From an uncultured Monoglobus sp. (lineage in GTDB: Bacteria; Bacillota; Clostridia; Monoglobales; Monoglobaceae), in the NCBI GenBank assembly GCA_947624305.1, contig CANQKC010000003.1, forward strand, positions 56,401 to 120,400: 64,000 nt of DNA, given 5' to 3'. The notes under the pieces were generated by a model. That model made no database searches. It saw only the letters and a list, made by a program, of their open reading frames with translations, and was not told the DNA's origin. Each line of letters opens with the position of its first letter. Position 1 is the stretch's first letter. Both the position numbers and the translations under genes were made by a program. Below are positions 3,472 through 60,921 of this stretch, in pieces.

Positions 3472-4848
3472 TTATTCGTTCAAAAATCTTCGCATTATGT
3501 TCCTCGCTATCGGGGCGGCGGTTCGGCCGCCGGGCGTGCCGTTGTTCTCAAGCAGCACTGCCACGCAGATCCTCGGACTTTCAGCCGGGGCGTAGCCCAC
3601 GAACCACGAATGATCCTCGCCGCTCTCGGTCTCGGCCGTGCCGGTCTTGCCCGCGACGGTGATCCCGTCGATCTGCGCCGTTGTTCCGGTACCTTCCTCA
3701 ACGACCCCGATCATCATATCCTGCACATACGCGGCGCATGCCACGCCCGCGCTCTCATAGAGCACGCTCGGACGCGTCTGGCCTATCACCGTCCCGTTCT
3801 CGGTGGTCACGGTCTCGACCAGATACGGCTTCATCATCCGTCCGCCGTTGGCTATCGCAGCTCCCATCATGGCGACGTGCAAAGGCGTCATAACAAGCCC
3901 GCCCTGACCGATCGACACTAAAGCCGCGTCGAGGTCGGTCATTCTCTTGTACTGAATTTCGCTTTTTGATGTGGGTATGTCAAATTCTATATCCTTGTTC
4001 ACGCCGAATTTTTCCGCCTCGGCTCTGACCCCGTCCGCGCCCATTTCATAGCCCAGACTGCAGAACACATAGTTGCTCGACTCCTCAAACGCGGTTTTTA
4101 TGTCAATGCTGCCGAAGGCCTCGCCTCCGTAATTGCTGACCTCGACGTCGCCCTTTTTGAACACGCCGGGATCGTCGAAGGTCTCGGTCGTCCTGCCGTT
4201 TTCGTAAACCGCGGCGGAGGTCGCTATCTTATAGGTGGAGCCCGGCGGGTAGAGGCCGCGCGTGGCGCGGGCCAGAAACGGCGAGTCGGGGTCCTCCATT
4301 ATTTCCTCCCAATCCTCCTCGATCGAGCTCGGGTCAAAATCCGGAAGGCTGACCATGGCCAAGATCTGGCCTGTCGTGGGCTCGATCGCCACGATCGCGC
4401 CGTGTCTGCCGTCAAGCTGGTCATAGGCGTACTCCTGGAGATAATCGAGGATCGTCAGATGCAGATCGTTGCCCGGGCGAATATCGCCGATAGTCAGGCC
4501 GATGTTCCCCTTGCCGATAAGGTCGCTGTCGCGGGTCATCTCAAGCTGCGTCTTGCCGTAGACCTGAGACGAATAGCCGATAACATGCGAGTACAGCCTG
4601 CCGCGCGGATAGCGGCGGATGCGCGAGCCGTCGCTGCCTATCTCGGTCTCGGCAAGAAGCTCGCCCTCGCTCGAATATATGCTGCCGCGCTTTATCTTCT
4701 GCTCGCTCTCCCACTGGCGGCGGTTGTATGAGTTGGTGTAAACGCTCTGCGCCCTGAACATATTGAACCAGAGCAGATACGAGGCCAACGCCAAAAACAG
4801 CAGCGCGATGACTACCAGAACTCTTATGATGCGCTTATTAACGTTCAT
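3472..4848 (-). CDS. Penicillin-binding protein 2 / FtsI-like D,D-transpeptidase (PbpA type)
   Basis: Signal anchor, TRGLYPPGSTYKIATSAAVYE (SxxK), SSNYVFCSLG (SxN), VAGKTGTAET (KTG). Confidence 0.93.
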   Translation of the reverse strand: MNVNKRIIRVLVVIALLFLALASYLLWFNMFRAQSVYTNSYNRRQWESEQKIKRGSIYSSEGELLAETEIGSDGSRIRRYPRGRLYSHVIGYSSQVYGKTQLEMTRDSDLIGKGNIGLTIGDIRPGNDLHLTILDYLQEYAYDQLDGRHGAIVAIEPTTGQILAMVSLPDFDPSSIEEDWEEIMEDPDSPFLARATRGLYPPGSTYKIATSAAVYENGRTTETFDDPGVFKKGDVEVSNYGGEAFGSIDIKTAFEESSNYVFCSLGYEMGADGVRAEAEKFGVNKDIEFDIPTSKSEIQYKRMTDLDAALVSIGQGGLVMTPLHVAMMGAAIANGGRMMKPYLVETVTTENGTVIGQTRPSVLYESAGVACAAYVQDMMIGVVEEGTGTTAQIDGITVAGKTGTAETESGEDHSWFVGYAPAESPRICVAVLLENNGTPGGRTAAPIARNIMRRFLNE

Positions 4849-11455: not shown

Positions 11456-11523
11456 ATAAATATTACTCCTTCCAAAATAATGAATTTACTCTTTTTGTCT
11501 ATCCAATGCCAATAGCTTTAGAA

Positions 11524-12414
11524 TTATTGTTCTGCCGGGAATTTTGTAATCTTGCCGGAAGCGTATTGCATAATGTAAATCGCATCGGTTGCATCGATGG
11601 AATCATTTGCATCAACATTAGCTCTAAGCTGTTCATCAGCGGACAGAGTCGTCTTTCCCGATGCATGCTGCATAACAAGAATAGCGTCTGTAGCGTTAAC
11701 ACCGTCTTTATTGTCAACATCACCGTATGTTACTTCGGGTGTGGGGCCGCCGGCTGTCAGCGTGAACGACTTAGCGTCGGGTGTGGCAACATCTGTGCCG
11801 CCGATCTTAACAACGATAATGTCGCCTTCATTATTGGCGCTCTTCGCAAGCTTAAAGGTATATGTGCCGCTTCCGCCTGCGGGACCCGCATACTGATTGA
11901 TATAGCCTACGGGTGTCTCGGCGGTAAAGCCAACCGTGTTGTTCTGGTCGCCTGTGATGCCCGTGATATTGTAAACAAACAATGTCATCTGGCTGGGAGC
12001 CGAGCTTACAGTGAACGGAACGCTTACCGTGTAATAAGTATCATCTGCTGTCGCAGAAATATCGCCGATAGCGATAACCGAACCTGTGGCAACGTCGTCA
12101 ACCTTGGCAGCAGCCTCGGCAACGTCCTCAGCCGTAATGTCTTTTGTCTCCAGCGGAACCGCAACTTCCTCAACAGGAGCCTCAACGTCCTCAGCATCCT
12201 CTGCGGGTGCCTCCGCATCCTCGGCAGGTGTCTCAACTTCTTCGGCAGCTTCCTCTGCGGGAGCAGCCTCGTCAACTGTTTCCTCAACAACGGGAGCCAC
12301 TGCTTCGGGAGCGGCCTCGTCAGCCTCAGCCGCAAACGCGAGACCGGCGGTTGCCGAGCAAATCATCAATGCGGCGGTGAGAGCCGCACCAAATTTAAAA
12401 ATTCTCTTTTTCAT
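11524..12414 (-). CDS. Secreted dockerin-domain protein
   Basis: Signal peptide, E/A/P-rich segment, C-terminal duplicated Ca-binding motif YGDVDNKDGVNATDAILVMQHASG...NVDANDSIDATDAIYIMQYASG (type I dockerin pattern). Confidence 0.85.
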   Translation of the reverse strand: MKKRIFKFGAALTAALMICSATAGLAFAAEADEAAPEAVAPVVEETVDEAAPAEEAAEEVETPAEDAEAPAEDAEDVEAPVEEVAVPLETKDITAEDVAEAAAKVDDVATGSVIAIGDISATADDTYYTVSVPFTVSSAPSQMTLFVYNITGITGDQNNTVGFTAETPVGYINQYAGPAGGSGTYTFKLAKSANNEGDIIVVKIGGTDVATPDAKSFTLTAGGPTPEVTYGDVDNKDGVNATDAILVMQHASGKTTLSADEQLRANVDANDSIDATDAIYIMQYASGKITKFPAEQ

Positions 12415-12715
12415 TTAATTATCCTCCTAATTTTGCCGTTTTATAAAATCGTCGATTTCTTCCCAATTAAATCCGCAATTTTACTTACCATCTCAAAATT
12501 CGAGGTTATCCTCCTTTCCCCAAAAATTCTCGCGGCATCAAACGCTTATGTACAATACCGCATTTTAAATTTTCTCTATTATGACACGGTACTATTATAC
12601 ACCCACATAAAATAAATTTCAAGTCTTTTTTTAAAATTTCTTGCAATTTTTCAAAGATATTAAAAAAAACTGACAATATGTTGACATTTTGCACAGTTTG
12701 AATATAATAATATTT

Positions 12716-13675
12716 ATGAAAAGAACGTTTTACTTAATTTTATCAGCGATAATTGCCGCGGCTGCTCTATCCGGCTGCGCCTCGACGCTCGATCAAAAGC
12801 GCGCCTCTGACACGCGTTTTTTGCTTGACACGGTCTGCACCGTGACCGTGGGCGGCGATAACGCCGAGGCCGCCGTCTACGACATCTTTGACATCGTTTC
12901 AAAAATCGCGGGCGAGATCGACTATTACGACCCCGGTTCCTCGGTTTCAAAATTCAACTCGGCGCCCGCGGGCGAGGCGGTCAGGCTCAGTGAGAGCTGC
13001 GCCGAGATCGTCGCGGCGGCGCTTGACGTTTCGTCGGCCTCGGGCGGCGCGTTTGACATAACGACAGCTCCGCTCAAGGACCTGTGGGATTTTAAGTCGG
13101 AAAGCCCCGAGGTCCCCGCGCCCGAACGGCTCGCCGAGTCGCTCGCTCATGTGGGATACGAAAAGCTCGCGTTTGACCCCGCCGCGCGGACGCTTTCAAA
13201 GACCGAGGACGGCGTCAAAATCGACCTCGGCGGCTGCGGAAAGGGCTATTGCTGTCAGGCGGCGATCAATTATATGGAAGAAAAGCATCCCGACTGCTTC
13301 GCGATAATCGACCTCGGCGGCAACGTCGGCGTGTACGGCGCCAATCCGCGGACATCGGACGGCTCATTCACCGTCGGTATTCAAAGCCCCGGCGGCGAAG
13401 GCGGCGAATATTCGCGCACCGTCAGCCTCACGTCTGGACAGAGCGCGGTCACGAGCGGCACCTATCAGCGCCATTTTGTGAAGGACGGCGTGAATTACCA
13501 CCACATTCTCGACCCCGCAACCGGAATGCCAGCGTCAAACGGCTTTGAAAGCGCCACGATAATTTGCGGCTCGGGAGTGACCGCGGACTGCCTTTCGACC
13601 GCGTGCATGGTTCTGCCCGAGGACGAGGGGCGCGCGCTCGCCGAAAAATATGGCGCGGAGCTTATATATCAATAA
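12716..13675 (+). CDS. apbE: FAD:protein FMN transferase (ApbE family lipoprotein)
   Basis: MKRTFYLILSAIIAAAALSGCAS lipobox; KIDLGGCGKGYCCQAAINYM; YHHILDPATGMPAS; start placed at 12716. Confidence 0.9.
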   Translation: MKRTFYLILSAIIAAAALSGCASTLDQKRASDTRFLLDTVCTVTVGGDNAEAAVYDIFDIVSKIAGEIDYYDPGSSVSKFNSAPAGEAVRLSESCAEIVAAALDVSSASGGAFDITTAPLKDLWDFKSESPEVPAPERLAESLAHVGYEKLAFDPAARTLSKTEDGVKIDLGGCGKGYCCQAAINYMEEKHPDCFAIIDLGGNVGVYGANPRTSDGSFTVGIQSPGGEGGEYSRTVSLTSGQSAVTSGTYQRHFVKDGVNYHHILDPATGMPASNGFESATIICGSGVTADCLSTACMVLPEDEGRALAEKYGAELIYQ

Positions 13676-13703
13676 TAACCGATCAGGAGATCAGGAGGAT
13701 AAT

Positions 13704-14849
13704 ATGCTTATAATCAACGCTGAAATCATGACCATGAGCGACAGGCTCGGCGTGATCAAAAACGGATATATCGAGATCAAAGACAAAAAGATCGCCTCAA
13801 TGGGCGATATGGCCGACGCGCCCGAAATAGGCGGCGAGATCATCGACGCGGGCGGACGCCTTGTGACGCCAGGCCTTGTGGATGCGCACTCGCACATAGG
13901 AATGTGGGAGGACGGCCTGACGTTTGAGGGCGACGACGGCAACGAGGACACCGAGCCGATAACGCCGCACCTCAGAGCGATCGACGGAATAAACCCGCTT
14001 GACGCCACGTTTTCGGAGGCGCTCAGCGCGGGAATAACGACGGTCGTGACCGGCCCGGGAAGCGCCAACCCGATAGGCGGCCAGGCAGCCGCGCTCAAAA
14101 CGAGCGGCAGGCGCGTTGACGACATGATAATCAAGGCCCCGGTCGGCATGAAGATCGCCCTGGGCGAAAACCCCAAGACCACATATAATGACAAAAGCCG
14201 CTCGCCGGTGACAAGAATGGCCACCGCCTCGCTTATCCGCGAGGCTCTGCGCGAGGCGCTCGACTATAAAACCGCGCTCGAAAAATACGGGGCCGACCCC
14301 GAGAACGAGGACAAGCCCGACTATGATATAAAATCCGAGGCGCTGCTTCCGGTGCTGAGGCGCGAGATACCGCTTCACGCCCACGCGCACCGCGCGGACG
14401 ATATTTTTACCGCCATACGCATCGCGAGGGAATTTGACCTTGACCTGATCCTGGTTCACTGCACCGAGGGGCACCTTATCGCGGACGAGCTCGCGCGCGA
14501 GGGCTTCCCCGTCCTCTCGGGCCCGATCATGACCGACCGCAGCAAGCCAGAACTCAGGAACCAGACCGAGGCCTCGGCGGGGATCATGGAGCGCGCCGGG
14601 ATCGACGTTTCGATAATCACCGACCACCCCGAAACGCCCGAAAAATTCCTTCCGCTCTGCGCCGCGGTCGCCGCGAAATACGGCATGAGCAGGGACGGCG
14701 CGCTGCGGGCGTTAACGATCAACCCGGCCCGCGCCTGCGGCATTGACGACCGCGTGGGCTCGCTCGAGCCCGGCAAGGACGGCGACCTCGTGATCTGGAA
14801 CGGCGACCCTCTTTCAATCGAGGGTTCCCCATATAAAGTGATATGCTGA
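13704..14849 (+). CDS. Amidohydrolase family protein
   Basis: LVTPGLVDAHSHIGMW metal motif, HAHRADDI, ITDHPETP; SD AGGAGG before ATG at 13704. Confidence 0.9.
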   Translation: MLIINAEIMTMSDRLGVIKNGYIEIKDKKIASMGDMADAPEIGGEIIDAGGRLVTPGLVDAHSHIGMWEDGLTFEGDDGNEDTEPITPHLRAIDGINPLDATFSEALSAGITTVVTGPGSANPIGGQAAALKTSGRRVDDMIIKAPVGMKIALGENPKTTYNDKSRSPVTRMATASLIREALREALDYKTALEKYGADPENEDKPDYDIKSEALLPVLRREIPLHAHAHRADDIFTAIRIAREFDLDLILVHCTEGHLIADELAREGFPVLSGPIMTDRSKPELRNQTEASAGIMERAGIDVSIITDHPETPEKFLPLCAAVAAKYGMSRDGALRALTINPARACGIDDRVGSLEPGKDGDLVIWNGDPLSIEGSPYKVIC

Positions 14850-46415: not shown

Positions 46416-46646
46416 ATGATAATACTTATCGCGATAATCTATTTCGGTTATCAATTAATTAAAGAGACTAATCAGGATATAGAGATGCGGCAATGGGCGA
46501 TAAGCAAAGGCTATGACTCGTACCCGTCAAACACCGGTCTCAGAGATGTCAGAACCAACAAGCCTTATGTAAGCAAACCGCGGCAAGGGCTAAATTCGCA
46601 CACCTGCACCCTGTCAAACGGTGAAAAAATTACATTTTATAAATAA
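46416..46646 (+). CDS. Small membrane protein
   Basis: 76 aa, N-terminal MIILIAIIYFGYQLI TM; SD GGGAGG upstream. Confidence 0.6.
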   Translation: MIILIAIIYFGYQLIKETNQDIEMRQWAISKGYDSYPSNTGLRDVRTNKPYVSKPRQGLNSHTCTLSNGEKITFYK

Positions 46647-46799: not shown

Positions 46800-46828
46800 T
46801 TGACACTCAGACGCGATTATGATATAAT
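46800..46828 (+). promoter_or_regulatory. Consensus sigma70/sigmaA promoter for the crRNA-like small RNA
   Basis: TTGACA (46800-46805) - N17 - TATAAT (46823-46828); predicted TSS about 46835. Confidence 0.8.
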
Positions 46829-46834
46829 ATAACC

Positions 46835-46938
46835 GATCCCGAAAAGGATCACCGCGCCTTAAAAAGCGCGTGAGTAGAAATTTTTAAAATTATTATATTG
46901 TTGTCGCGTCCCCATAAAGGGACGCGTGAGTTTTTATA
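46835..46938 (+). ncRNA. Putative crRNA-like small RNA: degenerate repeat 1 (46850-46881), 21-nt pseudo-spacer (46882-46902), degenerate repeat 2/terminator (46903-46938)
   Basis: GCGCGTGAGTAGAAAT vs array repeat 3' half GCGTGTGAGTTGAAAT (14/16); GTC-GCGTCCC-cataaa-GGGACGC-GTGAGTTTTTAT keeps the GTC-stem-loop-stem-GTGAGT architecture of the array repeat. Confidence 0.65.
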
Positions 46939-47008
46939 TCATGTGTTAGTCGATACAAATAAACATCAAAATACCTTTAAAAACATAAAAATAAATTTTA
47001 AAAAAGAC

Positions 47009-47038
47009 TTGACATTATATTATCAGATATGATATTAT
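47009..47038 (+). promoter_or_regulatory. Predicted cas operon promoter
   Basis: TTGACA (47009-47014) - N18 - TATTAT (47033-47038). Confidence 0.7.
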
Positions 47039-47040
47039 CA

Positions 47041-47069
47041 TTTTACAATTTTATATATTAATTGTAAAA
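47041..47069. promoter_or_regulatory. Perfect 9-bp inverted repeat over the predicted cas TSS/5'UTR
   Basis: TTTTACAAT-tttatatatta-ATTGTAAAA, just before RBS AGAGGTGAG. Confidence 0.7.
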
Positions 47070-47085
47070 GAGGTGAGATTAAATA

Positions 47086-49263
47086 ATGTCTACAAATTCC
47101 AACAACTACATAGCACATACATCCGATGACGGCAGGGTGCAGAGCGTTAAGGAACATCTTGAACAAACAGCGGAACTGAGCGCCGACAACGCTTTGCCGG
47201 AATTTAAAGAGCTCGCGCGCTGCTGCGGGCTGTATCACGACTTGGGGAAGTACTCACCGGAGTTTCAGAGATATATCAGGGGCTCGGGTCAAAAGGTTGA
47301 GCATGCGCGCTTTGGGGCTATGCGTCTTGCCCAAAATTGCGATACGTCCTATACCGCCATGCTCGCTTATTGTATCTGCGGTCATCATACGGGTTTGCCG
47401 GACGGAGGCGTATCGAATGATGAAAAGGGAGATCCAACACTTAACGGAATGTTAAAAAGAGAGCAATATGACTGTTCCGGGTTTGATAATGAGATTGGTG
47501 ATTGGTTTCCCGACGATTCTTTATTTGAGGTATTAAATAATTTGCCGGATAAAAAAGAATTGATCGAGGTTTACTCATTTCTCACGAGGTACATATACTC
47601 ATGTCTTACCGACGCCGATTTTATTGACACAGAGCGTTTTTGCAAGTCCAATGCCGAGAGAGGCCTTAAAGGTGATTTTGTTGCCGCTTATAAAAAGGTT
47701 TGCGCAAAATTTGAAGAATTCAAATCTGAAACGGAACTTCAAAAGGCGCGAAGCGGCGTTCAGCATCAGGTTTATGACAGCGTGGAAAACGGCGACGCGG
47801 ATGTATACATGATCGACATGCCGACAGGCAGCGGAAAAACTATGTGCAGCATCAAAGCGGCTTTGCGCTTGGCGATTAAAAAGAAAAAGAAAAGAATAAT
47901 CTATATAATGCCATACACAAGCATAATCGAGCAAACTGCAAAGGTTTTCAAGGATATATTCGGCGATTTGCTGCCGGTATTGCAGCACCATTCCAATTAT
48001 GACTTTGACAATTCAAGCAAAGATAACGATGAAAGTGTAACGACAAGCGAAAAATTAAAAAAGACTTGTGAGAACTATGACGCGCCTTTGATCGTCACGA
48101 CAAGCGTTCAATTCTTCGAATCACTCTACCATTACAAAAGCAGCAGACTACGAAAGCTGCATAACCTTGCGGACAGCGTGTTGGTGTTTGATGAGATACA
48201 CGCTCTGCCCGTTGAATATATCCAGCCGTGTCTGCGCGGGATAGGATACATAACGAAGTATCTTAACTCAACAGCGATCCTTATGTCCGCGACAATGCCC
48301 GACTACACGCGCTTTGCAGAAAAATATATTCCGAAATGCTCAATAGAATATGCAGTGAAGGACAAGAAACTTTTCGGGCGATTTAATAAATGCAAATATC
48401 AATATATCGGTCAAAGCGACATCGGATCGATAGCTGAAAAAGCGCTAGAACGGGAAAACTCACTTGTGATAGTCAATAAAAGAAGTACGGCAAGAGAGCT
48501 TTACAATATTTGCAAAAACAATCCCGATCATGAAGTGTATCACCTGTCAACATATATGACGCCGTCAGACCGCGCGAAAACCATAAACAGGATAAGAGAC
48601 AATCTTGATCGCGGCGATAATACGATCGTGATATCGACCTCGCTTATCGAGGCGGGCGTGGATCTTGATTTTAAGTCGGTTTTTCGCGAGATCGCGGGAC
48701 TTGACAGTATAGTTCAGGCGGGCGGCCGCTGCAATCGCGAGGGCAAAATGAGTTTCGGAAACGTGTTTGTATTTGAACTTGAGCCTTTAAAAGGAAATAT
48801 TGCCGTCAAAGCAAATGTCACACGAAAGCTTTTTAAGGAGTTTGAAAATGTTTCCTCACAGAATGCGGTCCGGGAATACTATGACAGAATTTTTGCATAT
48901 ACCGACACAAGCATAGAAAGCAATTCCATAACCAATTTTATGGGCAGAAGCATGGATCTGAGCGGAATTCCCTTTAGGACTTACGCGTTGGAGTTTAAAT
49001 TCATTGATACGGAAACGGTGGGTATAGTTATACCGTGCAAAGAAAACGAGAAGCTTATAAATTCCTTAGAATACGGCGCGCTTTCGGTTAAGCGAGAGCT
49101 TCAAAAATACTGCGCCTCGGTTTATTCCCGCGAACTTGAGTATATGATAGAAAAAGGAATTGCAAAAAATGTGTGTAATAATGTATATGTTTTGACTGTT
49201 CCCCAATATTACAGTAAGGAAACAGGACTTGATATAGGTAAAACTTTTGATCATTTTTTATAA
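47086..49263 (+). CDS. cas3: CRISPR-associated helicase-nuclease Cas3 (HD + DExH helicase)
   Basis: CCGLYHDLGKYSPEFQ (HD), MPTGSGKTMCSIKAAL, VFDEIHALP, STSLIEAGVDLDFKSVFRE, QAGGRCNREG. Confidence 0.97.
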   Translation: MSTNSNNYIAHTSDDGRVQSVKEHLEQTAELSADNALPEFKELARCCGLYHDLGKYSPEFQRYIRGSGQKVEHARFGAMRLAQNCDTSYTAMLAYCICGHHTGLPDGGVSNDEKGDPTLNGMLKREQYDCSGFDNEIGDWFPDDSLFEVLNNLPDKKELIEVYSFLTRYIYSCLTDADFIDTERFCKSNAERGLKGDFVAAYKKVCAKFEEFKSETELQKARSGVQHQVYDSVENGDADVYMIDMPTGSGKTMCSIKAALRLAIKKKKKRIIYIMPYTSIIEQTAKVFKDIFGDLLPVLQHHSNYDFDNSSKDNDESVTTSEKLKKTCENYDAPLIVTTSVQFFESLYHYKSSRLRKLHNLADSVLVFDEIHALPVEYIQPCLRGIGYITKYLNSTAILMSATMPDYTRFAEKYIPKCSIEYAVKDKKLFGRFNKCKYQYIGQSDIGSIAEKALERENSLVIVNKRSTARELYNICKNNPDHEVYHLSTYMTPSDRAKTINRIRDNLDRGDNTIVISTSLIEAGVDLDFKSVFREIAGLDSIVQAGGRCNREGKMSFGNVFVFELEPLKGNIAVKANVTRKLFKEFENVSSQNAVREYYDRIFAYTDTSIESNSITNFMGRSMDLSGIPFRTYALEFKFIDTETVGIVIPCKENEKLINSLEYGALSVKRELQKYCASVYSRELEYMIEKGIAKNVCNNVYVLTVPQYYSKETGLDIGKTFDHFL

Positions 49264-49273
49264 GGAGGACGGT

Positions 49274-50002
49274 ATGGGATACGGTTTCAAAATTATGGTA
49301 AGCGGCGATTACGCGTGTTTTACGCGGCCGGAGATGAAAACCGAAAGAGTGAGCTATGATGTGCCGACGCCCGGCGCGATGGAGGGGCTTATCAAGAGTA
49401 TTTATTGGAAGCCCGCGTTTCGGATAGTTGTGGACAAGATCATAGTATTCAATCCGATCAGGTTTATCAACATACGCCGCAACGAGGTAAAGGAGAAGGT
49501 GAGTTTTTCAAATGTGAAAAAGCAAATGAAAGACGGTGTACCGCGCGCCGAGTTGTACACCACGGACATTAAGACAAGAAGTCAGCGCGGCAGCATGATC
49601 CTCAAAGACGTTCTGTACGGCGTCGAGTTTCATTTTGAGCTTACCGGTATCAGGAGCGAGAATGACGACGAAAGCGAGGAAAAGCATTATAACATTATGC
49701 TCCGCAGATTAAAAAAGGGACAGCATTTCAGACAGCCGGTCTTGGGATGCCGCGAGTTTGCGGTGAAAAAGATTGAGCTTGTGGACGAGTTCCCGATGGA
49801 TCGTGTGTCAGACACACTGAACGGCGACACCGATCTCGGCTTTATGCTGTATCACATGAAATTCCGGGACAGCGGCATTCCGAAAGACAACGATTGGGAG
49901 ACGCGCAAGTTTTCCGACGAGGCGGATGCGGTGTTTTACCGACCGCACATGATCGACGGAGTGATAGATGTCGCGAAATACAAGGAGATGATGAAATGCT
50001 GA
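49274..50002 (+). CDS. cas5c: Type I-C Cas5c (crRNA-processing Cas5d family)
   Basis: FKIMVSGDYACFTRPEMKTERVSYDVPTPGAMEGLIKSIYWKPAF; SD AAGGAGG before ATG at 49274. Confidence 0.95.
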   Translation: MGYGFKIMVSGDYACFTRPEMKTERVSYDVPTPGAMEGLIKSIYWKPAFRIVVDKIIVFNPIRFINIRRNEVKEKVSFSNVKKQMKDGVPRAELYTTDIKTRSQRGSMILKDVLYGVEFHFELTGIRSENDDESEEKHYNIMLRRLKKGQHFRQPVLGCREFAVKKIELVDEFPMDRVSDTLNGDTDLGFMLYHMKFRDSGIPKDNDWETRKFSDEADAVFYRPHMIDGVIDVAKYKEMMKC

Positions 50003-51807
50003 TAAGCGCACTCAATGATTATTATGATATTTTATTAAAAAGAGGAGATACGGCAAAACCGGGAACCTCTCTGCAAAATATCACTCATATGATCATGCTG
50101 AGAGATGACGGAACAATAAGCAATATTATAGATGTTCGCAAGAGCGGAAAGCCCGACAAAAACGGCAAAACAAGGCTCATGCCCATTGAGGCAGTTTTGC
50201 CCACGCGGACTCAAAAGACGGCGATCGACGCGAACATAATCGAGCACCGCGCACCGTATATTTTCGGACTAAATTATGATAAGCAAACGAATGCTTTTAC
50301 TACTGAAGACGAAAAAAATAAGGCGAGGAAAGCACATGAGTGCTTTGCTAAAACGAATTTGGAGTATACCGAGGGAATGACATCCGATATTGTGACAGCA
50401 TATAGGAACTTTATCAAAAACTGGGTACCGGAAAACGAGACAAAAAACCCGCATCTTCTGAATATTGCCAAAGAATATCCCGGCGCGTATTTTATGTTTT
50501 GCCTTGACGGGCATCCTGAAAAAAGACTGCATGCCGACGATGGAGAGATAATGAAAAAAGTCAGGGACGCTATTAACACCGAAGAGCAAATTGACGGTGT
50601 CTGCGCTATAACCGGAAAAGCGGCGGAAATTGCAAAAATACACGACAAGATCAAAGGAATCCGCGGCGGACAACCCTCGGGCGGGCTTATTGTGAGCTTT
50701 AATGATTCTGCTTTTGAATCATACGGCAAGACTCAGTCATATAACAGTTCGATATCTAAATCCGTAATGAAACGATACACAGAGGCATTGAATTTTCTTA
50801 TAAAGGACTCATGGCATCATGAATATCTGGAGGATTTAACTGTCGTTTTTTGGGCGATGAATAAAAATGACATAGCTGAAACGAGTTCGTTTATGTTTAA
50901 TCTCGGCTTCGGGGGAAACAAAGCGAATGCAGACAAAACCGAAGAACTGCTGGGAAACGCGGTGAATAAACTTAGCGACGGCAAACACGCTGATTTGTCT
51001 ACTGATAATATTGATAAGAACGTGATGTTTTATGTTGTCGGTCTTGCGCCCAACAATTCAAGGATTGCGCAAAAATTCATATACCGTGACAGATACGGAA
51101 ATATTTTTAAAAATACCGAAAAGCATCAGGAAGACATGAAGATAGACGGCCTCAAAAAGCAGATATCCGTTTGGCGGATGCTCAATGAAATGAAGCCGCC
51201 GAAAAACCAAACCGAAAAAACGCCCGCGCCGGTCATAGCGGCGGTTTTCGGAGCTATACTGGACGGAACGCGGTACCCCGATACTCTGCTTGAAACAATA
51301 GTCAGAAGAGTCAAAACAGATAAAATAATAAATTATGCACGGGCAGGAATATTAAAGGCTTATATAAACAGAAATTTAAGATTAAACCAAAAAGAGGAGG
51401 AAATTACAATGGCACTTGACAAAACAAACACAAACGAAGCATATTTATGCGGAAGGCTGTTCGCGGTCCTCGAGCGCATCCAGAAGATCGCCGCGGATAC
51501 AGATCTTAACAAAACGATAAAGGATTCATATTTTGCTTCAGCGTGCTCGAGACCTATGTTGGTATTACCAAGACTGATAGAATTGGCTCAAAATCATCTT
51601 AAAAAATGTAAGTCCGGCAAAAAAATAGGAAGTGCGATATATTACAATAAACTTATGGGTGAGATCATTGACATGCTCGGAACCGATTTCCCGTCAACGC
51701 TGTCACTGCAGGACCAAGGCAGATTTATAATAGGTTACTATCAGCAGCGGCAGGATTTTTTCAAAGATAAAAATAATGAAAATAATAATACAGAAGGAGA
51801 GATGTAA
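49996..51807 (+). CDS. cas8c: Type I-C Cas8c (Csd1) large subunit
   Basis: MLISALNDYYDILLKRGD... VSFNDSAFESYGKTQSYNSSISKSVMKRYTEALNFL (Csd1 hallmark); start moved to 49996 from over-extended ORF. Confidence 0.95.
   Translation: MLISALNDYYDILLKRGDTAKPGTSLQNITHMIMLRDDGTISNIIDVRKSGKPDKNGKTRLMPIEAVLPTRTQKTAIDANIIEHRAPYIFGLNYDKQTNAFTTEDEKNKARKAHECFAKTNLEYTEGMTSDIVTAYRNFIKNWVPENETKNPHLLNIAKEYPGAYFMFCLDGHPEKRLHADDGEIMKKVRDAINTEEQIDGVCAITGKAAEIAKIHDKIKGIRGGQPSGGLIVSFNDSAFESYGKTQSYNSSISKSVMKRYTEALNFLIKDSWHHEYLEDLTVVFWAMNKNDIAETSSFMFNLGFGGNKANADKTEELLGNAVNKLSDGKHADLSTDNIDKNVMFYVVGLAPNNSRIAQKFIYRDRYGNIFKNTEKHQEDMKIDGLKKQISVWRMLNEMKPPKNQTEKTPAPVIAAVFGAILDGTRYPDTLLETIVRRVKTDKIINYARAGILKAYINRNLRLNQKEEEITMALDKTNTNEAYLCGRLFAVLERIQKIAADTDLNKTIKDSYFASACSRPMLVLPRLIELAQNHLKKCKSGKKIGSAIYYNKLMGEIIDMLGTDFPSTLSLQDQGRFIIGYYQQRQDFFKDKNNENNNTEGEM
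51409..51807 (+). CDS. cas11c: Cas11c small subunit from an internal start within cas8c
   Basis: In-frame ATG at 51409 (codon 472 of cas8c) preceded by strong SD AGAGGAGGAAATTACAATG; 132 aa product, as established for type I-C small subunits. Confidence 0.75.
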   Translation: MALDKTNTNEAYLCGRLFAVLERIQKIAADTDLNKTIKDSYFASACSRPMLVLPRLIELAQNHLKKCKSGKKIGSAIYYNKLMGEIIDMLGTDFPSTLSLQDQGRFIIGYYQQRQDFFKDKNNENNNTEGEM

Positions 51808-51808
51808 A

Positions 51809-52672
51809 ATGAAAGCAATTAATAACAGATACGAGTTTATAATGATTTTTGACGTTGAAAACGGGAATCCCAACGGTGATCCGGACGCGGGCAATATGCC
51901 GAGAGTTGATCCGGAAACAACGCACGGCATAGTCACAGATGTTTGCTTAAAAAGAAAAATACGCAATTTTGTCGAGCTGTGCAAGGAAGGCGAGCCGGGA
52001 TATAATATACTGATAAAGTCGGATAGGTCGCTCAATTCCAAGTTTACCGAAGCGTATGAAGCCGAAGGCCTTAAAACGGGACAAAAGGGCAAAAACGCCG
52101 ATGATGTCAGACAGGCGCGCGATTATATGTGCAGAAACTATTTTGACGTGCGCGCGTTCGGCGCGGTAATGAACACGGGCGAAGATCCGTGCGGCATCGT
52201 TCGCGGTCCGGTCCAGATCAACTTCGCCAGAAGCGTTGATCCGGTATATACTCAGGATATTACGATCACAAGACAGGCAAAAACAACAAATGACAGGATG
52301 AAAAGCGGAGAGACCGAAATGGGGAAAAAGAATATTGTGCCTTACGGCCTCTACAAGGCCGAGGGTTATGTGTCGGCAATGCTCGCGCAGAAGGTCACTG
52401 GTTTATCGGAAGATGATCTTGATCTGCTATGGAATGCCATAATCAACATGTTCGAGCATGATCACAGCGCAGCGCGCGGCAAAATGTGCATGAGAAAGCT
52501 CCTGATATTTAAGCATGAAAGTCCGCTCGGAAACGCTCCGTCGCATGTTTTATTTGATAAGATAGCGATCAATAAGAAATACGGCATTGAGTGCCCGAGA
52601 AATTATGAGGATTACGAGATCGCCGTTGACAGAGATATGCCCGAGGGCGTAACTCTTATCGAAAAGCTGTGA
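51809..52672 (+). CDS. cas7c: Type I-C Cas7c (Csd2) backbone subunit
   Basis: FIMIFDVENGNPNGDPDAGNMPRVDPETTHGIVTDVCLKRKIRNFV. Confidence 0.97.
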   Translation: MKAINNRYEFIMIFDVENGNPNGDPDAGNMPRVDPETTHGIVTDVCLKRKIRNFVELCKEGEPGYNILIKSDRSLNSKFTEAYEAEGLKTGQKGKNADDVRQARDYMCRNYFDVRAFGAVMNTGEDPCGIVRGPVQINFARSVDPVYTQDITITRQAKTTNDRMKSGETEMGKKNIVPYGLYKAEGYVSAMLAQKVTGLSEDDLDLLWNAIINMFEHDHSAARGKMCMRKLLIFKHESPLGNAPSHVLFDKIAINKKYGIECPRNYEDYEIAVDRDMPEGVTLIEKL

Positions 52673-53316
52673 CGATCAATATTCGCGCTATTCAGCACTA
52701 TATGTACTGTCCGCGCCGCTTTGGACTGCTTGAGTTAAACCAAGACTGGGCGGAAAACGCTTTTGTCGTGAAGGCGAACATCATGCACGAGCGCGTCCAT
52801 TCGGGTATGCATGAACGTCATTCAAAAGAAAAAATCGAACTCAGCTCGGTTTCGCTCTATCATGACGGGCTCGATTTGTACGGCGTAGCAGACTGTGTTG
52901 AATTCGTAAGAAGCAAAAACGGGGCTTACATAGAGCAGCTCGGCGACAATTTCAGCGTTAACATTGTCGAGTATAAGCCCCGTCGCCCCGCTTCCGGAAC
53001 GGTAAGCGAAACCGACGCGATACAGGTCTTTGCGCAAAAGCTTTGCGCGGATCATATATGGAAATGCGAAAGCGCGGGCTATATATACTACGGCGACGCG
53101 CACCGCAGGGTAAAGCTTGATCTTAACGAGGAGTATGACAAATACTATTCTCTGCTGCAAAAGCTGGTTTTTGAAATGAATGAAGTTCTTGAAAGCGGAA
53201 AGATACCGGATCGGGTCAAAGGGCAGAAGTGCAGCGGCTGCTCAATGAAAAATGTGTGTATTCCTCAGAACAAAAAATACACTGTCCGCAATCTTGTTAA
53301 GGAGGAATGTGTATGA
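52669..53316 (+). CDS. cas4: Cas4 exonuclease-family protein (GTG start)
   Basis: AIQHYMYCPRRFGLLE, C-terminal KCSGCSMKNVCIP Fe-S cysteines. Confidence 0.95.
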   Translation: MTINIRAIQHYMYCPRRFGLLELNQDWAENAFVVKANIMHERVHSGMHERHSKEKIELSSVSLYHDGLDLYGVADCVEFVRSKNGAYIEQLGDNFSVNIVEYKPRRPASGTVSETDAIQVFAQKLCADHIWKCESAGYIYYGDAHRRVKLDLNEEYDKYYSLLQKLVFEMNEVLESGKIPDRVKGQKCSGCSMKNVCIPQNKKYTVRNLVKEECV

Positions 53317-54335
53317 GGAAACTTTTGAATTCATTGTATATAACAGACGAAAATATATACCTCACTCTTGACGGAGAAAATATCGTATGCAGGAAGGATA
53401 ATGAAATTAAGCTCAGAGTTCCGTTTTCAAATATTGAGGCGGTTTACTGCTTCAGCTACCTTGGATGCTCGCCGGCTTTAATGGGAAAATGCGCGGAGTA
53501 TGGTATCCCGATAAGCTTCATATCCCCTCACGGCCGTTTTCTCGCGAGTGTTCACGGGCCGGCGCACGGCAATATACTGCTGAGAAAAGCGCAGTTTGAA
53601 CAATTCGCGGATCCTCCCGCGCTGCTGCGGCAGAACGTGGTCGCAGCCAAAATGGCAAATACAAGAAGCGTCGTGAAAAGAACGCTGAAGGATTATCCGT
53701 CCATAAATCCCGACGGCAGCCTTTCGCATTGCATCGAGCTGCTTGACCAATACATAGAAAACGTGTATGAAGCTCAAGATATAAACGAAATTCTCGGGAT
53801 AGAAGGGCAGGGCGCAAAGGCCTACTTTGATATTTTTGACAGCTTGATCCTGCACCAAAAGAATGACTTTAAGTTCTCAATGAGAACGAAACGTCCTCCG
53901 CTTGACAGAGTAAACGCCGTTTTGTCATTCTTGTATACGATTTGGACAAACGATTATGCCTCGGCGCTTGAAAGCGTGGGTCTGGACAGTTATTTGGGAT
54001 TTTATCATTCTGTGCGTCCGGGCCGCGCTTCGCTCGCGTGTGATCTTGTTGAAGAAAGCCGCTGCATTATTGAGCGATTTGTGCTGACTATGATCAACCT
54101 GAAAATATTAAACGCGGATGACTTTGAAACACAGGTCAGCGGGGCGGTATTTCTTAACACTGACGGCAAAAAGAAGATACTTTCAAAGTGGCAGGAGAAA
54201 AAACGAAGCGATATTGTGCATCCCTATCTTAAGCAAAAGATAGACCTCGGCCTTTTGCCATACGCGCAAAGCATGCTGCTCGCGAAATATATCCGCGGCG
54301 AGATCGAGGAATATCCGTGCTATATCGTAAAATAG
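53313..54335 (+). CDS. cas1: Cas1 integrase (type I-C)
   Basis: MRKLLNSLYITDENIYLTLDGENIVCR; GLDSYLGFYHSVRPGRASLACDLVEESRCIIERF. Confidence 0.97.
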   Translation: MRKLLNSLYITDENIYLTLDGENIVCRKDNEIKLRVPFSNIEAVYCFSYLGCSPALMGKCAEYGIPISFISPHGRFLASVHGPAHGNILLRKAQFEQFADPPALLRQNVVAAKMANTRSVVKRTLKDYPSINPDGSLSHCIELLDQYIENVYEAQDINEILGIEGQGAKAYFDIFDSLILHQKNDFKFSMRTKRPPLDRVNAVLSFLYTIWTNDYASALESVGLDSYLGFYHSVRPGRASLACDLVEESRCIIERFVLTMINLKILNADDFETQVSGAVFLNTDGKKKILSKWQEKKRSDIVHPYLKQKIDLGLLPYAQSMLLAKYIRGEIEEYPCYIVK

Positions 54336-54347
54336 GAGAACAAAATT

Positions 54348-54638
54348 ATGATGTGTGTAGTGAGCTATGACGTGTCAACGATCGACTCCGCGGGGAAGCG
54401 AAGACTCAGAAAGGTCGCCAAGGAATGTCTTAACTATGGCCAGCGTGTGCAGAATTCGGTTTTTGAGGTTGATGTTGATTACTCGACCTTTCTGAAGTTG
54501 AAGGACAGACTTGAAAAAATTATTGACAGCGATAAGGACAGCCTCAGAATATACTACCTCGGCAATAATTGGAAAAGACGCGTTGAGCATATCGGAGCCA
54601 AATCGACCTACGACCCGGAGGGCGCGTTGATTTTATAG
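54348..54638 (+). CDS. cas2: Cas2
   Basis: MMCVVSYDVSTIDSAGKRRLRKVAKECLNYGQRVQNSVFEVDVD. Confidence 0.97.
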   Translation: MMCVVSYDVSTIDSAGKRRLRKVAKECLNYGQRVQNSVFEVDVDYSTFLKLKDRLEKIIDSDKDSLRIYYLGNNWKRRVEHIGAKSTYDPEGALIL

Positions 54639-54782: not shown

Positions 54783-57700
54783 GTCACGCCTCGCAGAGGC
54801 GTGTGAGTTGAAATTTTAATTTGGCGGTCAGAAATATAAACGCGACAGGTCACGCCTCGCAGAGGCGTGTGAGTTGAAATTTGGCGTGTATTCGTCCAGT
54901 TTCGGTTTTTCCAAGTCACGCCTCGCAGAGGCGTGTGAGTTGAAATTTGAGTATATGGGTCTTGCGAGCTGGTCTGTTGAAAGTCACGCCTCGCAGAGGC
55001 GTGTGAGTTGAAATTGTTCCTGCTCGTATGTTTGCCGCATATCAACAAGTCACGCCTCGCAGAGGCGTGTGAGTTGAAATTCGCTTGTAGGGCACTGACG
55101 GATTCTGCGCTTTTGTCACGCCTCGCAGAGGCGTGTGAGTTGAAATTTTTGATAATGTCATGGAAACCCTCAATCAAAGCGTCACGCCTCGCAGAGGCGT
55201 GTGAGTTGAAATCAGACCGTACCGCAAACAGCTACATGGGGGCTCCCGTCACGCCTCGCAGAGGCGTGTGAGTTGAAATCTCTAAAAAATTTATTGATTT
55301 ATTTTATGCTACTGTCACGCCTCGCAGAGGCGTGTGAGTTGAAATGCGTATTCGGGTGTGTATTCGGACAGCGAAAGCGAGTCACGCCTCGCAGAGGCGT
55401 GTGAGTTGAAATTTTTCAGAACCTCCGTGTACACTCGGTCGCTTTGGTCACGCCTCGCAGAGGCGTGTGAGTTGAAATAGAACGTCGTTTGACAAGGTTT
55501 TGAACAGCATGTGTCACGCCTCGCAGAGGCGTGTGAGTTGAAATGTTTGTTTATTTGCATTTCATCTTGAAAGAGAAAGTCACGCCTCGCAGAGGCGTGT
55601 GAGTTGAAATGTAGCAGATGCTACCGTTCCACCAGAAATATCCGGTCACGCCTCGCAGAGGCGTGTGAGTTGAAATTTTTCAGAAGTTCTCGCAGCGTTG
55701 CCGTCATTTTGTCACGCCTCGCAGAGGCGTGTGAGTTGAAATTCGAGACTGCGGGCGGAGAGAAGAACGTTATCGAGTCACGCCTCGCAGAGGCGTGTGA
55801 GTTGAAATTTTCTGAAGATCGCCCAGACGCTGCCTCACATATTGTCACGCCTCGCAGAGGCGTGTGAGTTGAAATTGTTCCGATTACCAATTCACCGGCG
55901 ACGCCGGTGGTCACGCCTCGCAGAGGCGTGTGAGTTGAAATCAATCGAGCGGACGCTGACGGGCGACACCGATAAAGTCACGCCTCGCAGAGGCGTGTGA
56001 GTTGAAATATAATCCGTTATGGAAAACGCTTATCGATAAAGGGTCACGCCTCGCAGAGGCGTGTGAGTTGAAATAAAATGCGCCTTATCAATGGCGTTTG
56101 AAATTGTTGTCACGCCTCGCAGAGGCGTGTGAGTTGAAATTTTCGCAAAAATACTTTCCGGAATATGCGCCAAGTCACGCCTCGCAGAGGCGTGTGAGTT
56201 GAAATGAGAGTGTTGACGCGGACATGAAGAAGTTCACGAGTCACGCCTCGCAGAGGCGTGTGAGTTGAAATTGAAATACTGAATATAACCCGTTATAGTT
56301 TTCGAGTCACGCCTCGCAGAGGCGTGTGAGTTGAAATGATGCGATGGCGGGCGAACTGCAATCACCGTTTTGTCACGCCTCGCAGAGGCGTGTGAGTTGA
56401 AATGAAGGTTGGAAAATGTAGAATTGCGCCATTCGGCGTCACGCCTCGCAGAGGCGTGTGAGTTGAAATTCCCCAAGGGGCGAGCCGGGCGGATAATATC
56501 CGCGTCACGCCTCGCAGAGGCGTGTGAGTTGAAATTTTTGATATTCGCAGTTATACGTATGCGCAGAAAGTCACGCCTCGCAGAGGCGTGTGAGTTGAAA
56601 TGACATCAGTTCTCCTTCACGGAGCCGCGCAAACGCGTCACGCCTCGCAGAGGCGTGTGAGTTGAAATGCTCAGCGGACGCTTAGTCAAAAAATACGGCG
56701 GGTCACGCCTCGCAGAGGCGTGTGAGTTGAAATGGCGCCGTCGTCATATTCGTCCGGGTCAAACTCGTCACGCCTCGCAGAGGCGTGTGAGTTGAAATAT
56801 ACGTTTATCTCGTTGAATATGCTCGTGCGAATAGTTCGTCACGCCTCGCAGAGGCGTGTGAGTTGAAATATACAGTCTGAGCGTCGCGGAGGCGCAGTCG
56901 TTAAGTCACGCCTCGCAGAGGCGTGTGAGTTGAAATTCCCGTTTCGGCATTGAATACCAAATCGAAGTTGGGTCACGCCTCGCAGAGGCGTGTGAGTTGA
57001 AATTCCGTTTTCGTGCAATATTCCCCTTGACATTCCGTCACGCCTCGCAGAGGCGTGTGAGTTGAAATCACGATGCCTTGATTGTTCCGCCCGACCAAAA
57101 ATGTCACGCCTCGCAGAGGCGTGTGAGTTGAAATGGCCGTCAGTAGTCCAGTCTATAGGCTCGGTGTTGTCACGCCTCGCAGAGGCGTGTGAGTTGAAAT
57201 TCAGCAGAAATGTTAGCAAACTCGGGGATCTCAAGTCACGCCTCGCAGAGGCGTGTGAGTTGAAATACCTGATGTCACTTCCTCTTAACCAAGCCATTGA
57301 GTCACGCCTCGCAGAGGCGTGTGAGTTGAAATGATGAGCCTTAACTTGCAGTTTTGCAAAAACATGTCACGCCTCGCAGAGGCGTGTGAGTTGAAATTTT
57401 TAATAACGCCTGTTTAATTTCATCGTCAATCGTCACGCCTCGCAGAGGCGTGTGAGTTGAAATATGAACGAGGATCACATCAAAGGGTTTCGGTTTTAGT
57501 CACGCCTCGCAGAGGCGTGTGAGTTGAAATATTTCATCTATACCGAGTAGCCAATCTGCGCTTGTGTCACGCCTCGCAGAGGCGTGTGAGTTGAAATTAA
57601 CCACGTCTGCAAAATGGGTCTGGGGAATACCTGTCACGCCTCGCAGAGGCGTGTGAGTTGAAATTCTCGTTAAAATCATACGCGGTCATTTGCAAATATT

Positions 57701-60700
57701 GTCACGCCTCGCAGAGGCGTGTGAGTTGAAATCTTGAAATGCTCCGAGACGTGGCACGGCGATATAGTCACGCCTCGCAGAGGCGTGTGAGTTGAAATTG
57801 AACTTGAGGCCAAAACACCCGATGAGGATTTCAGTCACGCCTCGCAGAGGCGTGTGAGTTGAAATGCCTCTGATAATTGGATTGTTCGGGTCAAATGTAG
57901 TCACGCCTCGCAGAGGCGTGTGAGTTGAAATGTAGTTGTATAATTTCCGACTGAAACAGCAATCAGTCACGCCTCGCAGAGGCGTGTGAGTTGAAATAGG
58001 ATTTCGGCACATCACAATCGGCCGCATTTTGTCACGCCTCGCAGAGGCGTGTGAGTTGAAATGACGAATACGGTCATTGCGCAACAGGAGCGCTACATGT
58101 CACGCCTCGCAGAGGCGTGTGAGTTGAAATGTGCGTTTCATGCGCAGCTTTGAGCACGTCTAAATCGTCACGCCTCGCAGAGGCGTGTGAGTTGAAATTC
58201 TTTCAATTTCGTTTTTTGCCGAATACGGGCATGTCACGCCTCGCAGAGGCGTGTGAGTTGAAATTCGCAATGGCAGATCGACGCGCACGGATATTGGCGC
58301 GTCACGCCTCGCAGAGGCGTGTGAGTTGAAATGGCCGAGGCCACCGAGAAAAAAAGGACGATTTTCGTCACGCCTCGCAGAGGCGTGTGAGTTGAAATCG
58401 GGGTTTCCTCCGTCGGGGTTTTAAGTGCTTTTTCGTCACGCCTCGCAGAGGCGTGTGAGTTGAAATTGTTGTCGTAGCTGTTGTTTACGCCCACATAGTG
58501 TCACGCCTCGCAGAGGCGTGTGAGTTGAAATTACGCGAACGGCGAGGACATAACCAAAATGGCGGGTCACGCCTCGCAGAGGCGTGTGAGTTGAAATATG
58601 AATATCCTCGCCGATCTCTTTGATCACCTCATGTCACGCCTCGCAGAGGCGTGTGAGTTGAAATGAGAAAAAAGTGCAGGAGCTTGAAAGCAGATTGAGT
58701 CACGCCTCGCAGAGGCGTGTGAGTTGAAATTATCAAACGTCACCATGCCGCGATCTGCCCGTTCGTCACGCCTCGCAGAGGCGTGTGAGTTGAAATAAAG
58801 AAACGCTCGGTATCTTCGAGGGTGAAACCGTCACGCCTCGCAGAGGCGTGTGAGTTGAAATCCGGTTGGCATTGGAGCGCGCTGCATAGTTTGTCAGTCA
58901 CGCCTCGCAGAGGCGTGTGAGTTGAAATGTGACACCTATCTTTACGTTGTGAAAAGAGTCAAGTCACGCCTCGCAGAGGCGTGTGAGTTGAAATCCGCTT
59001 TATTGAAGTAAATATCATCGCCGGGACCTGTCACGCCTCGCAGAGGCGTGTGAGTTGAAATAGTGGTGTGTCAATACTTTTTTTAAAAAATCTGCAGTCA
59101 CGCCTCGCAGAGGCGTGTGAGTTGAAATTCGGGATAAGGATTTCCCGTCTTATACGGCAGGTCACGCCTCGCAGAGGCGTGTGAGTTGAAATGATGCGAT
59201 GGCGGGCGAACTGCAATCACCGTTTGTCACGCCTCGCAGAGGCGTGTGAGTTGAAATCGTCCTCAACGCCTACGTTCAGCGAACGGAATACGTCACGCCT
59301 CGCAGAGGCGTGTGAGTTGAAATTAAGCGTGTATTTGTAGACCACGTCGCCGTTTTCGTCACGCCTCGCAGAGGCGTGTGAGTTGAAATAATTTTAACGA
59401 CGAGGGGCAGGACAGAGGCTACGTCACGCCTCGCAGAGGCGTGTGAGTTGAAATTTTGAAAAACTGCGGAGCATTTTTTGTACAGGAGGTCACGCCTCGC
59501 AGAGGCGTGTGAGTTGAAATATCAATGGCGTTCGAAATTGTTATCGCAGTCATTGTTACAAGTCACGCCTCGCAGAGGCGTGTGAGTTGAAATTCTCCTG
59601 ATTTGTGGGCGCGGAACAGCGGCTATCGTCACGCCTCGCAGAGGCGTGTGAGTTGAAATAATGCCCATATCGGCAAACTTGGCGCCCGTCTCGTCACGCC
59701 TCGCAGAGGCGTGTGAGTTGAAATGAGATGGGCACGGCAACAAATAACGTGCAAGGTGTCACGCCTCGCAGAGGCGTGTGAGTTGAAATTTTGGAAATCT
59801 TACCCGTATGATACAACGGTTTGCCGGTCACGCCTCGCAGAGGCGTGTGAGTTGAAATTGGACACGCTACACAGCGGTTGGTACGCCGGTAGGTCACGCC
59901 TCGCAGAGGCGTGTGAGTTGAAATGCGGAAGGTAATGTCGGTGATGTCACGGTCAATGGTCACGCCTCGCAGAGGCGTGTGAGTTGAAATATCGCAAACC
60001 CTATTCCTCTGCTAAGCGTTTTTGTCACGCCTCGCAGAGGCGTGTGAGTTGAAATGCTAAGATTATAGAGATAGGCGAGAGGCATAACGCGTCACGCCTC
60101 GCAGAGGCGTGTGAGTTGAAATATTGAGGAACGCTATACTCAGCAAGCCATGTATGCGTCACGCCTCGCAGAGGCGTGTGAGTTGAAATAATACTGTCAG
60201 CCAATTCCGACACATCGCCAACCGTCACGCCTCGCAGAGGCGTGTGAGTTGAAATTCCAGATCTGCGGGCTTCGCGATCCAGCAGACAAGTCACGCCTCG
60301 CAGAGGCGTGTGAGTTGAAATTTGTGTTTAGAACAATACTTCTCGTTGTGTTCAACGTCACGCCTCGCAGAGGCGTGTGAGTTGAAATTGTTTTCCACCA
60401 CGCAACGAATCGGAAAAATGGAGTCACGCCTCGCAGAGGCGTGTGAGTTGAAATGGGTTTACCTTTTCTATCATGCTATAACACCTCGTGTCACGCCTCG
60501 CAGAGGCGTGTGAGTTGAAATTGATCGGATTTGCGTATGTGCCCGCCGCGGGTGGTCACGCCTCGCAGAGGCGTGTGAGTTGAAATGTTTGAATATCGCC
60601 CGATGATACGTTCCACGATGTGTCACGCCTCGCAGAGGCGTGTGAGTTGAAATTCGGCCGCGCGGGAAACGCTTTGCCATTTGCGGGAGTCACGCCTCGC

Positions 60701-60921
60701 AGAGGCGTGTGAGTTGAAATGCTATATCAAACAACTCGGTGTATTTGGGGTTGTCAGTCACGCCTCGCAGAGGCGTGTGAGTTGAAATTCTGCACCGTTA
60801 AAGCAGGATAAAATCGCCTCGCGTCACGCCTCGCAGAGGCGTGTGAGTTGAAATTTTGTCAGGCGTGAGAAACGGGCATACTTCCATGTGTCACGCCTCG
60901 CAGAGGCGTGTGAGTTTTAAT
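54783..60921 (+). CRISPR. Type I-C CRISPR array, 93 repeats / 92 spacers
   Basis: 32-nt repeat GTCACGCCTCGCAGAGGCGTGTGAGTTGAAAT, near-invariant; I counted 93 copies; spacers 32-41 nt (mostly 33-36); last repeat (60890-60921) degenerate at its 3' end (GAGTTTTAAT). Confidence 0.99.

Follow-up and report, generated by a model that had tools for sequence, protein, structure and literature searches.

A short crRNA-like mini-array lies upstream of cas3 in the type I-C CRISPR-Cas locus described here, and comparison with related loci indicates that it encodes a CreR-type RNA through which the I-C Cascade would repress the operon that encodes it; we place the probability of this reading at about 0.92. 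An earlier sequence-only reading had called the element a type I-C Cas-autoregulatory crRNA-like RNA. That proposal is now supported by comparative evidence, in the form of a covarying, PAM-flanked target at the cas promoter region; the guide match to the cas3 promoter region and its PAM were absent from that reading and were found on follow-up.

A mini-array at the head of a type I-C cas operon

The window, by which we mean the whole 64,000-nucleotide stretch of DNA that was analysed, holds a complete type I-C locus, as attested by its cas3-cas5c-cas8c-cas7-cas4-cas1-cas2 gene order and its array (Table 1). The array repeat, GTCACGCCTCGCAGAGGCGTGTGAGTTGAAAT, has its first copy from position 54783 and is related to the repeats of the mini-array. 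A genome-wide search for GTGAGTWGAAAT returned 94 matches, comprising 92 in the adjacent array, one in the mini-array element and one on contig C45; this contig of genome G000, which is not the one with the cas operon, has another group of array-like repeats belonging to the same family (11337-13926, minus strand). The spacers of the window array gave no match in 50,697 phage records, and a PAM inferred from spacers was not obtained; for the arrays of two relatives, the matches listed included only repeat-like sequence in two phage records.

The element stands some 150 nt upstream of cas3 (47086), its repeat-like sequences lying outside the array and beside the cas genes as in CreR. The promoter, the two repeat-like elements (psiR1 and psiR2) and the 21-nt pseudo-spacer (psiS) of the sequence-only reading were all recovered at the same positions, as were the 1/11 nt difference between the psiR1 handle and the array repeat handle and the run of psiR2 into TTTTTAT. 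The predicted psiR2 fold has an energy of -15.7 kcal/mol (z -4.7), and the predicted 107-nt transcript folds better than 200/200 shuffles (z -4.0). No Rfam family matched anywhere in the window. Upstream of the element lies a 76-aa ORF (46416-46646) with a hydrophobic start; it matched no NCBIfam model, and a similar sequence occurs upstream of the element in one relative only (L010).

Table 1. Positions in the window of the mini-array, its predicted target and the type I-C locus.
Feature	Position	Strand	Remarks
Promoter of the creR-like gene, TTGACA-N17-TATAAT	46800-46828	+	Perfect consensus, sigma-70-type; TTGACA 46800-46805, 17-nt gap, TATAAT 46823-46828; first transcribed base near 46835
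5' leader hairpin, GATCC-cgaaaa-GGATC	46836-46850	+	Predicted fold; roughly conserved among group-A relatives
psiR1, degenerate type I-C repeat	46850-46881	+	3' end GCGCGTGAGTAGAAAT at 46866-46881
Predicted 11-nt 5' handle, UGAGUAGAAAU	46871-46881	+	Expected after Cas5c cleavage of psiR1
psiS, 21-nt pseudo-spacer, TTTTAAAATTATTATATTGTT	46882-46902	+	Effective guide is nt 1-17 (46882-46898)
psiR2, second degenerate repeat	46903-46934	+	GTCGCGTCCCcataaaGGGACGCGTGAGT at 46903-46931; strong 3' hairpin then TTTTTAT, probable terminator
Predicted promoter of cas3 and operon, TTGACA-N18-TATTAT	47009-47038	+	Consensus match only
Protospacer of psiS, start of cas3 transcription unit	47053-47069	-	Pairs at guide 1-5, 7-11, 13-17
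PAM CTC (GAG on + strand)	47070-47072	-	Overlaps Shine-Dalgarno GAGGTGAG
cas3	47086-49263	+	TIGR01587 and TIGR01596
cas5c	49247-50002	+	TIGR01876; expected repeat processor
cas8c	49990-51807	+	TIGR01863
cas7	51776-52672	+	TIGR02589
cas4	52669-53316	+	TIGR00372
cas1	53307-54335	+	TIGR03640
cas2	54348-54638	+	TIGR01573
CRISPR array, handle TGAGTTGAAAT x92	54783-60916	+	Repeat search

Conservation of the element in related loci

The sequence-only reading had counted a lack of conservation upstream of cas3 in relatives among the results that would refute it; the element is in fact kept there, being present in 11 related loci and lying on the opposite strand in five of them. The nine first relatives (L001-L008 and L010, from rabbit-gut Clostridia and Monoglobus MAGs) carry it in the same intergenic region and fall, with the window, into two groups: in group A (window, L001-L003, L010) the element is on the cas3 strand, and group B (L004-L008) has it on the strand opposite cas3. 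A covariance-model search, likewise proposed earlier, separated the relatives from ordinary array units; trained on these ten sequences, the model scored the training loci at 89-100 bits and array units at 51 bits or less, and it retrieved two further members, L057 and L058, at 82 bits, a degree of conservation well outside chance. It gave no other strong member beyond these two related groups; the matches of the wider survey described below came instead from a rule that combines handle and target.

A perfect-consensus TTGACA-N17-TATAAT promoter precedes the element in 10/10 loci checked, on either strand, and is suggestive of transcription. The handle is kept as UGAGUUGAAAU in the nine model relatives although the psiR1 stem degenerates; some group-B psiR1 stems hardly fold, so that processing by Cas5c is uncertain for some group-B elements. 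In L001, L002 and L003 the array handle is TGAGTTGAAAC and the CreR handle TGAGTTGAAAT; in the window the deviating handle is that of the CreR (TGAGTAGAAAT).

Several loci depart from the common layout. In L006 (1012-1164, minus strand), psiR2 is followed by an ordinary spacer of full length and a third repeat, and the 3' end of psiR2 in L007 is still GAAAT; the two are possible intermediates between a small array and CreR. In L059 (genome G003, 1290-1690) handle and guide are lost, and the stretch with the cas3 promoter and target is missing; this apparent decay agrees with the guide-target rule described below, yet a single locus is an anecdote rather than a test. In L061 (genome G008, contig C121, about 1459-1552, minus strand), a group-A creR promoter and psiR1 run straight into a 34-nt spacer and an array-type repeat. 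This genome, of the same genus, has no Cas5c match, and it looks as though the whole cas operon was lost there via recombination between psiR1 and the array end.

The guide matches a PAM-flanked site in the cas3 leader

Scanning the pseudo-spacer against 190 nt around the cas3 start, with no PAM imposed, gave one best site, located 17-33 nt before cas3. Guide TTTTA-A-AATTA-T-TATAT and target TTTTA-C-AATTA-A-TATAT agree at 15/15 core positions, mismatches fall at positions 6 and 12, and pairing stops from position 18 on; on this pattern, the predicted pairing unit is 17 nt arranged as three 5-nt segments, rather than all 21 nt. In the I-E Cascade, the crRNA has its base flipped out at every sixth position (PMC5904413), and the free positions 6 and 12 thus match the footprint expected of a type I Cascade. 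The PAM in the window is CTC rather than the canonical I-C TTC; CTN has been reported as well (PMC8482600). Another candidate, a 10-nt seed match near 47000, upstream of the cas3 -35 box and with a CTT flank, was dropped in favour of the YTC site, which pairs at 15/15 positions and covaries.

The site at the cas3 leader is unique in the 2.68-Mb genome in a pattern search that left positions 6 and 12 free and allowed at most one mismatch. This bears on whether the RNA could be a CreTA-like antitoxin, repressing a toxin gene instead of, or besides, cas3. The psiR1-psiS-psiR2 layout is the same as that of CreA (PMC9458426), and the 76-aa ORF upstream might be proposed as the toxin. The genome-wide target search, however, found no cognate toxin gene with a guide-matching promoter; the gap between psiR2 and cas3 is too small for a toxin ORF, the 76-aa ORF resembles no NCBIfam family, and the upstream stretches read in L001-L003 hold no sequence similar to it. 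Because the interval from the element to cas3 has no room for a toxin gene and shows no sign of one, we favour CreR over CreTA and regard an antitoxin role as highly unlikely.

Guide and target co-vary

Each guide fits its own target. Over 12 loci, guide and own target match at 179/180 core positions (1-5, 7-11 and 13-17), whereas matches outside the core number 4/12 at position 6, 4/12 at position 12 and 0/12 at position 18. Although no PAM was imposed in the scans, the PAM is YTC (CTC or TTC) in 12/12 close loci. The mean core match is 14.9/15 for a guide with its own target and 12.2/15 with the targets of other loci, and when targets were swapped among loci the observed total was reached in 0/100,000 permutations, also with identical guides collapsed. 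In dinucleotide shuffles of the promoter region (8 loci x 2000), 15/15 was never reached with a YTC PAM, and was reached by 0-2 of 2000 when no PAM was required; the any-PAM shuffles averaged about 11/15, partial matches being common by chance since the region is AT-rich. The two loci retrieved by the covariance model, both found after the rule had been seen, match at 15/15 (L057) and 14/15 (L058, mismatch at position 15) core positions. On the cas3 tree, 18 core substitutions are inferred for the guide, and for 17 of these the target carries the mirrored change; position 6 shows no guide changes against four target changes. These comparisons argue that guide and target are co-evolving and that the element is conserved by selection, as would be expected of CreR.

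This co-variation weighs heavily against the idea that the element is left over from an ancestral array that has decayed, or is a displaced leader-end repeat, and is functionless now. The repeats are degenerate, to be sure, and both the extra repeat with its ordinary-length spacer in L006 and the GAAAT end of psiR2 in L007 suggest descent from a small array. Against this, relatives with the element in either orientation have retained its promoter, handle, guide and second hairpin, and co-evolution exactly at the Cascade-contacting positions is unexpected of a remnant, which we consider a most improbable explanation.

Position of the target and proposed mechanism

In both groups the target starts 32-41 nt ahead of the cas3 start codon. 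The cas3 promoters used for reference are predicted from consensus matches only. Measured against them, the group-B target starts at the -10 box, and that of group A starts about 20 nt past the point where the -10 box begins, inside the predicted 5'-UTR; repression in group A would therefore act by blocking early elongation. The target in L008 (group B) is at 9955-9971.

The position of the target also helps to weigh an ordinary antisense RNA, which would bind the cas3 mRNA leader and block its ribosome site without Cascade. Two features are as such an RNA would have them: the guide could pair with the mRNA strand, to which it is complementary, and the group-A target is in the 5'-UTR, its PAM falling within the Shine-Dalgarno sequence. 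Starting from the -10 box, however, the group-B target is probably mostly outside the transcript, and the free positions 6, 12 and 18, the YTC PAM and the kept crRNA handle are all unpredicted by antisense action, leaving it very unlikely.

The CreR-type reading can be set out as a sequence of steps. The element's strong promoter would give a short RNA of about 100 nt, in which Cas5c would trim psiR1 to the 11-nt 5' handle and the psiR2 hairpin would form the 3' end. Loaded into the I-C Cascade, this RNA would use guide nt 1-17 to bring the complex to the YTC-flanked site in the cas3 promoter or 5'-UTR, a step suggested by the match, the co-variation and the flipped-base periodicity seen on sequence comparison. 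With only 17 bp, the hybrid would not suffice to lock the R-loop fully or to allow cleavage by Cas3, and the bound Cascade would act as a roadblock that reduces transcription across the entire cas operon. As in the published CreR systems, by analogy, repression would be relieved when ordinary crRNAs compete for Cascade or an anti-CRISPR disables it. In type I-E, binding by Cascade is maximal with at most about 18 bp and interference needs more (PMC5904413); a 17-nt guide should therefore bind firmly without self-cleavage.

The same element might instead activate or time cas expression, as the direction of its effect is not readable from sequence. In most loci, however, the target is on or just past the -10 box, where bound Cascade blocks polymerase, and at a comparable site the I-C Cascade represses: in CRISPRi in Neisseria, a I-C Cascade with a TTC-flanked spacer over a -10 box is repressive (PMC10865793). 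We hold activation to be extremely unlikely.

A wider survey of type I-C loci

A search of 392 genomes of the same class for Cas5c gave 60 matches, from which 54 loci were taken beyond the close relatives; with seven more distant loci from the relative search, 61 loci outside the close group were surveyed. The survey rule called for a standalone copy of the repeat handle, followed by a guide fitting a nearby YTC site at 14/15 or more core positions. It was passed by 13/61 loci, compared with 3/370 scans with shuffled (decoy) handles, a result that is exploratory because the first matches were already known when the thresholds were fixed, and because the handle has two mismatches in four cases (the weaker L016, L078, L106 and L113). 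In an earlier pass made with no PAM restriction, TTC sites ranked first for most of the survey matches. The targets lie upstream of cas3 or cas5, and the guides are mostly unrelated to that of the window. The L016 match is on a Phycisphaerales contig. Neither L009 nor the Prevotella/Hallella loci L011-L015 gave a match to the handle-guide-target rule, and the feature is therefore not universal in type I-C.

Across the 22 distinct guides, core positions match in 20-22 cases each, while positions 6 and 12 give 6 and 7 matches, and 18 and 19 at most 4. We see an even chance that type I-C generally carries an unreported CreR class, marked by three 5-nt segments (17 nt, with 6, 12 and 18 free) and a YTC PAM, and maintained in Clostridia and on a Phycisphaerales contig as guide and target continually co-evolve. 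If so, the 17-nt three-segment guide would be a natural optimum, giving tight Cascade binding without Cas3 cleavage.

Significance and comparison with known systems

The element would extend RNA-guided cas autoregulation to type I-C, among the commonest CRISPR subtypes, on comparative evidence that is unusually strong. The 22 evolved guides amount to a natural measurement of pairing by the I-C Cascade, namely 17 nt in three 5-nt segments beside a YTC PAM; a guide length apparently selected for regulation without self-destruction should be useful for I-C CRISPRi. From each element of this sort one can also predict the local PAM, as well as a switch expected to be tripped by anti-CRISPR proteins.

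Related arrangements fall into several kinds. The crRNA-like mini-arrays of Shmakov et al. 2023 (NAR 51:8150) reportedly consist of a spacer with partial complementarity to cas promoters, flanked by two repeat-like sequences, and are said to belong mostly to type I systems; the tables of that study may well include I-C examples. With CreA of CreTA (PMC9458426), the element shares the psiR1-psiS-psiR2 layout, partial complementarity and a psiR1 more diverged than psiR2. CreA, however, represses a toxin, whereas the only target found here is the cas3 promoter region.

Racr RNAs, including RacrIC1 (PMC10651486), are similar in that they hold a standalone I-C repeat with its own promoter. They differ in being phage-borne decoys that inhibit Cascade, whereas this element, in each of 12 genomes, stands at the start of the cas operon that it appears to target. 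One Racr-like sequence came up in an unannotated human-gut phage contig (L129, phage MT836150.1, about 3735-3782), where a solitary I-C repeat is accompanied by promoter-like sequence, a 16-nt tail and a terminator; the tail matched none of the cas promoters of the loci studied and the 392 genomes. The type II-A long-form tracrRNA, as Workman et al. 2021 is cited in PMC10651486, is likewise a natural guide RNA, whose short match lets a Cas effector repress the promoter of its own gene, but it is a Cas9/tracrRNA system without crRNA repeats.

The closest counterpart is CreR (Liu et al. 2023, Cell Host Microbe 31:1481; see also PMC12737573), which in the summary given by PMC13131331 is known from I-B, I-E and V-A. 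All of the defining features of CreR that can be read from sequence are found here, PAM-flanked limited complementarity to the cas promoter region included, and no toxin gene appears under control, since the sole genomic target with at most one mismatch is at cas3. As CreR is summarised there, the two have in common a standalone mini-CRISPR beside cas genes, limited guide complementarity to a cas promoter, the lack of a toxin gene and a proposed Cascade-guided autorepression. Set against the same summary, this element differs in belonging to type I-C, with a crRNA made by Cas5c rather than Cas6, in its 17-nt guide of three 5-nt segments beside a YTC PAM, and in an orientation relative to cas3 that varies between clades. 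Of all this, the three-segment 17-nt rule across type I-C has the best chance of being new.
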